Origin: Cellulosimicrobium sp. Marseille-Q4280
Lineage (GTDB): Bacteria > Actinomycetota > Actinomycetes > Actinomycetales > Cellulomonadaceae
Length of the DNA: 64,000 nt
NCBI RefSeq assembly: GCF_943181405.1
Contig: NZ_CALPBY010000008.1
Span: forward strand, 233,357-297,356
Reading direction: 5' to 3'
The position numbers and the translations under genes were made by a program. Below, one piece after another: positions 50,640-64,000 of the stretch. A model generated the notes under the pieces. The model ran no database searches, was not told where the DNA came from, and saw nothing but the letters and a program-made list of their open reading frames with translations. The stretch's first letter is position 1. Every line of letters starts with the position of its first letter.

Positions 50640-50765
50640 GGCGCTCACCGCTGTCGAACCCGTGCTCTGCACGGTTAGGCGAGCGCCGTCGTCGACGGCC
50701 GTCTGTCATCCGCCGCTCGTCGTCCGTCGTCCTGGCGACGTGCCGAGGGCGTCACGACGCGCCGG

Positions 50766-62087: not shown

Positions 62088-62334
62088 GTCCCTGTGTCGA
62101 TCTCGTGAATCCGCAGGTCGTGGCGAGGTCTCGACGCGCGTGCCTCCAGCATCGCGCCAGGCGACCGGTCGCGCGGGCGCGACCTCGGACCGAGAGACGC
62201 CGGCGGCGCGATGCCACGACGGTCTGGCGCGTTCGTCCGCACCGTGAACAAGTGCTGCACAGCGCGCGGCGCGAACGAGGTCACGGTGTGGTCGAGGTGG
62301 GGTCCGGCGAGTGGCGGGACCTGGTGGTGATCGG

Positions 62335-62340
62335 CAGAAT
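62335..62340 (+). promoter_or_regulatory. -10-like box, possible leaderless start of the MerR gene
   Basis: CAGAAT is followed by 6 bases and then the ATG at 62347. The rest of the 295-base divergent gap with whiB holds nothing further that I can support. Confidence 0.45.
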
Positions 62341-62346
62341 CGATCC

Positions 62347-63498
62347 ATGACCTCCGTGCGGTCCGCCCCCGACCCCGAGGGAGCCCGACCGACCATGTCC
62401 CACAGTCCCGGTCTCGCCGTCGCCGTCGTCGCCCGACGCCTCGGCGTCGCTCCGGCGACCCTGCGCACCTGGGACAGGCGCTACGGGCTGGGCCCCTCCG
62501 AGCACCAGGCGGGCTCGCACCGTCGCTACACCGACGACGACGTCGCGCGCCTGTTCATCATGCGGCGCCTCACGCTCGAGGGCGTGGCCCCGGCGGACGC
62601 CGCCCGGAACGCCCTCGCGGCCGACGGCGACGAGCTCGCTGCCCACCGTGGGACGAACGCGACCCTCGAGTCCGTGGACGCGACCGTCGACGCCGACGAC
62701 CTGGACGGTTCCGACGACGCCGACGAGGACGAGGACGACGGCGGCCCGGCCCCGCGGGGCGTCGGGCCGCGGCCGTTCCTGCGCGCCGTCCCGGGCGGGG
62801 AGAAGCGCGGTCCCTCGGCACCCCGGATCGGCGGGCTGCGCGACGCGCGGCCCGTGACGGTCTCCGACGCCGTCGACGCGGCCATCGCCTACGACCAGCG
62901 CACGTGCGACCGCCTCCTGCGGATCCCGGCGGGCGTCGACCCTGCCGACTGGTGGTCCGACCTGGTGGAGCCGGCGCTCGACCGTCTCGCCGAGCGCACG
63001 GTCCTCGCGACCTCCGGCGAGGTGCCCGAGGTCGTCCTCGCGAACGCGACGCTCGGTGCGCTGCGCGAGTACACGCAGTCGCGCGAGGACGCGATCGTCG
63101 CCGCTGGCGGCCCGCCGCGCAACCACCCCAGCCGCATGCGCCGCATCGTGCTGGTGTTCGCCGCGCCCGACGAGCCGCTGCCCCTCGCCGCGCACGCGCT
63201 CGCGGCCGCGCTCGGCGCGCACGGCGCGATGGCACGGATCGTCACCGGTCCGGCGAACGTCCACCGCACGCTCGAGCTCGTGACGATGGTCCGGCCCGCG
63301 GCCGTCGCGATGGTGACGACGCAGACGCGGCCCGACCTCGGCATCGTGCACGCCACCTTCGAGGCCAACCCCGGGCTCCCGGTGTTCGTCGGCCTGCCCA
63401 GCGACGACGTCGCAGCCGACCTCCCGCTCGCGCCGACGGTGCACCGCGTGCGCAGCTTCCCGGGGCTGCTCCACGAGCTCCTCGCCGTCGTGCGCTGA
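62347..63498 (+). CDS. MerR-family transcriptional regulator with cobalamin-domain-like C-terminus
   Basis: The 383-residue product has an N-terminal MerR helix-turn-helix (about 22-90, VAVVARRLGVAPATLRTWDRR then GSHRRYTDDDVARL). An acidic Asp/Glu linker (about 115-135) follows. The C-terminal half resembles the light- and B12-sensing CarH/LitR proteins: a helical segment (WWSDLVEPALDRLAERTVL) and a Rossmann-like segment (RRIVLVFAAPDEPLPLAAHALAAALGAHG). The W-x9-EH and ExHxxG residues that bind cobalamin are not preserved, so cofactor binding is doubtful. It is divergent from the WhiB gene and could regulate it; that is inference. Confidence 0.8.
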   Translation: MTSVRSAPDPEGARPTMSHSPGLAVAVVARRLGVAPATLRTWDRRYGLGPSEHQAGSHRRYTDDDVARLFIMRRLTLEGVAPADAARNALAADGDELAAHRGTNATLESVDATVDADDLDGSDDADEDEDDGGPAPRGVGPRPFLRAVPGGEKRGPSAPRIGGLRDARPVTVSDAVDAAIAYDQRTCDRLLRIPAGVDPADWWSDLVEPALDRLAERTVLATSGEVPEVVLANATLGALREYTQSREDAIVAAGGPPRNHPSRMRRIVLVFAAPDEPLPLAAHALAAALGAHGAMARIVTGPANVHRTLELVTMVRPAAVAMVTTQTRPDLGIVHATFEANPGLPVFVGLPSDDVAADLPLAPTVHRVRSFPGLLHELLAVVR

Positions 63499-63521
63499 CC
63501 ACCGCGCCTCGGCCGGACGGG

Positions 63522-63543
63522 GCCCGCCGGGCACGCGGCGGGC
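63522..63543 (+). terminator. Putative terminator of the MerR gene
   Basis: GCCCGCCG (63522-63529) pairs with CGGCGGGC (63536-63543) around GGCACG, 24 bases after the stop. The following 90 bases hold no supported feature. Confidence 0.5.
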
Positions 63544-63633
63544 GATCCGGGGACGGGTCTCGCGCTGGAATACCGGGCGGCCTCGCGGCGTAGAAGTCGG
63601 AGGGGACCTCCTCGCCCGCCCCCCGTTCCACGC

Positions 63634-63666
63634 CTGTCTCTTATTCACACCCGACGCCGCCGGCGG
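63634..63666. other. Nextera/Tn5 adapter-like sequence, probable assembly artefact
   Basis: Bases 63634-63652 match the 19-base engineered Tn5 mosaic end (reverse-complement orientation) with three mismatches. The next 14 bases match the Read-1 adapter tail with three mismatches. That is 27 of 33 positions by eye, and five of the six differences are A/T replaced by G/C. The mosaic end is synthetic, so this is most simply adapter read-through built into a contig end. Confidence 0.85.
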
Positions 63667-63823
63667 AGGAGGGCGCGGGCGGCCCGGCGGCCGGGGACCC
63701 GGCGGCCCCCCGTTCCCTGGACGACCTCCCCGCCGGCCGGGACCAGCCACAGGTGGGCGGCGGAGCACGGACGGCCGCGCACAGAGCGGCCGGCGGGGGG
63801 CGGGGGCGCGGAGCGCGTGCGGG
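63667..63823. other. Low-complexity GC-rich stretch after the adapter-like sequence, no supported gene
   Basis: The sequence is dominated by G/C runs and shows no recognisable coding pattern, promoter or RNA. Given the adapter match immediately before it, it may be low-quality read sequence rather than genome. Confidence 0.55.
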
Positions 63824-64000
63824 CTCTTCAGGATCCTGGGAGCGCGGTCCTCCCCCGCGCACCTCTGGTTCTGCCCGCCGATCGTCACCGGGACGGTCAT
63901 CCTCATCATCGGCGTGACCCTCATGGACGTCGCCGCGGGCTGGATCACCGCCCAGGGCGAGAGCGCGGCGCCGTCGGACCTCGCGCTCGCCGCGGGGACG
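63824..64000 (+). CDS. NCS2-family nucleobase permease, internal fragment (no start, runs off window)
   Basis: The frame reads LFRILGARSSPAHLWFCPPI followed by VTGTVILIIGVTLMDVAAGW and on to LALAAGT at the window edge. The PPxVTGTVIxxIGxxL pattern is the fourth-helix region of UraA/PbuX-type uracil or xanthine permeases, about residue 125 of some 430. The preceding 120 or so residues that such a protein needs are absent, since the MerR gene and adapter-like sequence occupy that space. The fragment probably belongs to a separate contig joined here. No in-frame start codon fits. Confidence 0.6.

Follow-up and report, generated by a model that had tools for sequence, protein, structure and literature searches.

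An error-ridden Nextera adapter followed by copies from other contigs at a Cellulosimicrobium contig end: almost certainly an assembly artefact

The right-hand end of one contig in the draft genome of Cellulosimicrobium sp. Marseille-Q4280 (GCF_943181405.1) carries, downstream of a MerR-like regulator gene, a sequence that resembles a Nextera sequencing adapter, and it raises the question of whether the bases from there to the edge belong to the living strain or to the assembly alone. The window analysed here, a stretch of 64,000 nucleotides, corresponds to positions 233357-297356 of contig C8 in a 12-contig assembly, and the contig ends at window base 64000. We consider it almost certain (with a probability of about 0.98) that, at this contig end, the region 63634-64000 is an artefact of the assembly, arising from adapter read-through and the chaining of low-quality read tails; it is an artefact of a known kind, it contains no real feature and there is nothing biologically new in it. 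The features of the contig end are collected in Table 1, and left and right contig ends are denoted below by L and R.

Table 1. Features at the right end of the window, with the evidence for each.
Feature	Positions	Strand	Evidence
MerR-like regulator gene, last real gene on the contig	62311-63498	+	395-aa ORF; Pfam MerR_1 and MerR; homologue in 20/20 loci
Intergenic stretch, probably real	63499-63602	+	Alignments to 13/16 congener loci reach at least 63623
Putative degraded guaB start, presumably to the end of the library insert	63603-63633	+	Aligns with the first guaB bases in L060
Tn5 mosaic end and Nextera Read-1 tail, six errors	63634-63666	+	27/33 identical; 0/200 shuffles as good
Putative place of the 8-base i5 index, from the spacing	63667-63674	+	Spacing of 8 gives the best P5-remainder fit among spacings 0 to 15
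Probable degraded rest of the i5/P5 oligo	63675-63703	+	12/15 G/C kept, 0/14 A/T kept; 63689-63703 also claimed by the C1 copy
Degraded copy of C1:1052778-1052858	63689-63769	+	83% identity; 12/14 mismatches are A/T to G/C
G/C-rich stretch between the C1 and C6 copies	63770-63790	.	Covered by neither match
Degraded part of the C6 copy, left of the exact run	63791-63873	-	18 mismatches (11 A/T to G/C), all within 63797-63873
Exact 127-base copy of C6:394473-394599, last bases of the contig	63874-64000	-	Terminal exact run

An outward-pointing adapter

An earlier, sequence-only reading of this stretch had described a Nextera match over 33 positions with six differences, five of them from A/T to G/C, and our comparison reproduces it, the sixth difference being A to T. 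Positions 63634-63649 read CTGTCTCTTATTCACA, which is the Tn5 mosaic end over its first 16 bases but for a single change, and CTGTCTCTTATACACA, searched with up to three mismatches, matches the window at this site only (100 shuffles gave a mean of 0.04 matches, and 4 of them had one). The mosaic end is joined directly to the Read-1 tail; the next-best place in the window for the 33-base adapter reaches 19/33, and 200 shuffled adapters run across the window gave a mean maximum of 19.8 and a highest value of 22, and on these shuffles we reject a chance origin of the match. The adapter lies 335 bases inside the end of C8 and points outward. A Read-2 tail was also sought in the window and discarded as a poor fit (20/34, tied by another place).

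The adapter probably continues beyond 63666, further than had been noticed before. At the 8-base gap given in Table 1, the i5/P5 remainder keeps more of its 15 G/C positions than at any other spacing from 0 to 15, where it keeps at most 10. Plain identity over the same bases is 12/29, a value not above chance (P5 alone reaches up to 19/29 elsewhere in the window), and it is low because 13 of the 14 A/T positions read G or C. For these comparisons, the remainders of P5 and P7 were used in the form that we take them to have.

A likeness to the mosaic end could also be expected if the living strain carried, downstream of its MerR-like gene, either the end of a natural Tn5/IS50-type transposon or a mini-Tn5 inserted in the laboratory. 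The first 19 bases agree with the mosaic end at 16 positions and with each of the natural IS50 ends, outside and inside, at 14, the letters of these ends being those that we assume for them. However, the similarity runs on into the Read-1 tail, which to our knowledge no transposon carries, and the Read-2 tail is also present at other contig ends of the assembly. In addition, PF14706, which we take to be the DNA-binding family of Tn5-type transposases, has no match in the strain's own genome, while the E. coli control was positive. A natural transposon end is rejected on its worse fit and the lack of a PF14706 match, and the whole transposon account, of which the wild form had already been judged unlikely in the sequence-only reading, appears to us extremely improbable. 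With up to two mismatches, the mosaic end is found twice in the genome, at 63634 and at C10L, and in none of the 16 independently assembled congeners, where the sequence-only reading had proposed to look for it.

The true neighbour and the pieces beyond the adapter

In all 20 related loci (16 from the genus and 4 from the family), the MerR-like gene is followed on the same strand by guaB, so named here because its copy in locus L060 matches IMPDH and CBS; in L060, 82 bp separate the two genes. In the strain itself, guaB lies in an open frame at the left end of another contig (C7:210-1729), and C8R and C7L therefore flank a single gap, which falls where guaB begins. Over roughly its first 200 bases, C7 carries copied C2 sequence, which becomes more degraded toward guaB. 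Gene adjacency to the right of the adapter had previously been called unproven and, with guaB at the start of C7, can now be called wrong: a permease-like fragment is falsely placed beside the MerR-like gene, and guaB stands on C7 without its true upstream region.

Errors probably begin near 63603, before the adapter, judging from the alignment to L060, in which the guaB start codon is GTG and the aligned window reads GGG. None of the 16 congener loci aligns beyond 63634, and no congener match spans that position among the matches listed. Distrust should start near 63600; from there to the right edge the sequence is unfit for use, and gene order, promoters or fusions inferred to the right of about that position are false. 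As a side observation, one record among those of Cellulosimicrobium, L107 (QAPD01000029.1), matches at 78% and is titled Sphaerisporangium cinnabarinum ATCC 31213, a label that may be wrong.

What follows the adapter had been dismissed as G/C-rich junk, a description that holds only in part, as much of it can be traced to degraded copies of C1 and C6 sequence and, finally, to the exact 127-base copy of C6. A/T to G/C changes outnumber the reverse by 12 to 1 in the C1 piece and by 11 to 1 in the C6 piece, and the errors rise with distance from the contig end, the base just beyond the exact run being a mismatch. The C1 source sequence has matches in 12 of the 16 congeners, and the C6 piece has one long match among the matches listed for the congeners (G008, 86%). 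The C6 original lies inside an intact 499-aa ORF, presumably permease-like, a name we take from its family.

These pieces allow two further accounts of the contig end. A chance likeness to the adapter in G/C-rich sequence might stand before a duplicate of the C6 gene that is genuine and has diverged, and the overall identity of the copy, 93% across 198 bases, would suit an older duplicate. An aged duplicate, however, would not show this distribution of mismatches, with 0 in the last 127 bases and 18 in the preceding 83; the adapter score exceeds those of all 200 shuffles, the expected next gene, guaB, sits at the end of another contig, and an exact run of 127 is seen again at three other ends. 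The gradient of mismatches and the exact run of 127 bases lead us to reject a real duplicate, and we regard this account as very improbable. It is even harder to believe that the adapter alone is artefactual and wrongly inserted, with a true genomic continuation to its right: that part does include real sequence of the strain's own genome, but intact copies of it lie elsewhere, on C6 and, conserved among congeners, on C1, and the gene that neighbours the MerR-like gene in every related locus is on C7.

Signs at other contig ends

The presence of an adapter embedded in the assembly, as first proposed, is supported both by its position at a contig end and by outward adapter matches at three other ends. 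We scanned 1500 bases at each of 22 of the 24 contig ends for Nextera sequence, leaving out C12, which reads as N, and used 42 segments of the window as an interior control, whose maximum score was 27. Four of the 22 ends exceeded this maximum, all with the adapter pointing outward: C8R (44), C9R (40), C10L (34) and C4L (28). C9R and C4L also show P7-like sequence and poly-A, at 52/68 and 48/68 in a fit made without a control. The index bases read at C8R, C9R and C4L gave nothing firm by which these ends could be linked to one library. The Nextera remnants other than that of C8 are found in loci L098 (C9 right end), L079 (C4 left end) and L017 (C10 left end) of the same assembly.

A terminal run of exactly 127 identical bases, with a mismatch at base 128, is found at C8R (in C6), C9L (in C2), C4R (in C1) and C6R (in C2L), that is, in four of the eight end pairs tested. 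The recurrence of this length suggests a de Bruijn assembly with k=127; 127 is the largest k of SPAdes, a common de Bruijn assembler. The bias in base changes recurs at C7L, where A/T to G/C changes in the comparison with C2 number 14 against 1, and C10L looks as if degraded pieces from C8, C7 and C5 had been chained together, those with weaker matches (75-79% identity) being probable assignments.

Several observations speak against the artefact account. The exact 127-base run fails in the other four pairs, with terminal runs of 101 at C7L, 88 for C10R against C11L, 73 for C5L against C8L, and 11 at C10L; the signal at C4L is weak, as its Read-2 match, taken by itself, scores barely above the interior maximum and the P7 and poly-A fits have no control; at C10L the excess of A/T to G/C changes is weaker (9:1, 9:4, 12:6 and 10:3) and G/C to G/C changes are common; and positions 63770-63790 fall outside both the C1 and the C6 match.

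Some ends look chimeric and show no clear adapter: L081 (C9 left), L085 (C4 right) and L071 (C7 left) carry terminal copies of C2, C1 and C2, respectively, that grade into G/C-rich junk. A separate observation concerns the 18-mer CTACCATCCGCCGCTCGT, which has 13 exact copies in the genome, four of them within about 180 bases of a contig end (C1 right, C3 right, C5 left and C8 left), and which the window matches near 50703 with two mismatches; it resembles a REP-like repeat, dispersed through the genome, at which contigs break.

A probable course of events and comparison with known artefacts

The order of events that we infer would begin with the assembly halting where guaB starts. A rightward read from the MerR-like gene would run out of its short library insert near 63633 and enter the Nextera Read-1/i5 adapter, where its quality would fall and A/T would increasingly be called G or C; poor read quality would thus lie behind the biased changes. 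The untrimmed tail of this read and those of reads from C1 and C6 may then have been chained through chance similarity of their G/C-rich junk, and the path would have stopped on meeting the graph of C6, leaving one full k-mer of C6, 127 bases if the assembler and its k are as suggested above, as the last bases of the contig.

The value of this case lies in quality control, and its biological interest is low. An adapter screen that relies on exact matches would not flag the right end of C8, while exact terminal 127-base runs, taken together with the gene order of congeners, provide a simple means of recognising and explaining such ends that needs no raw reads. We would give about even odds to the more general proposition that false ends can be recognised by a signature made up of an error-ridden adapter, then chained read tails and then unrelated sequence of the same genome exactly one k-mer long, that exact adapter screens would miss it and that it may affect other high-G+C drafts assembled with a large k.

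The mosaic-end, Read-1 and Read-2 letters used here agree with the oligos given in PMC4248319. The reverse complement of Tn5ME-A from that source is what fits the window at 63634-63666, and the tail of Tn5ME-B is present at C9R and C4L; unlike these oligos, the window copy carries substitutions, mostly from A/T to G/C. Moeller et al. (2024; PMC11536531) have described how adapter sequence occurs at contig ends in microbial assemblies and how it affects their contiguity, and the present case shares with that description the concentration of adapter at contig ends, its outward direction and its tie to broken contigs. That work counted 12-base stretches identical to the Illumina universal adapter, and the word 'Nextera' occurs in its main text 0 times; here, in contrast, the adapter is a Nextera adapter with six errors, it lies 335 bases inside the end, and pieces of other contigs are chained on behind it.
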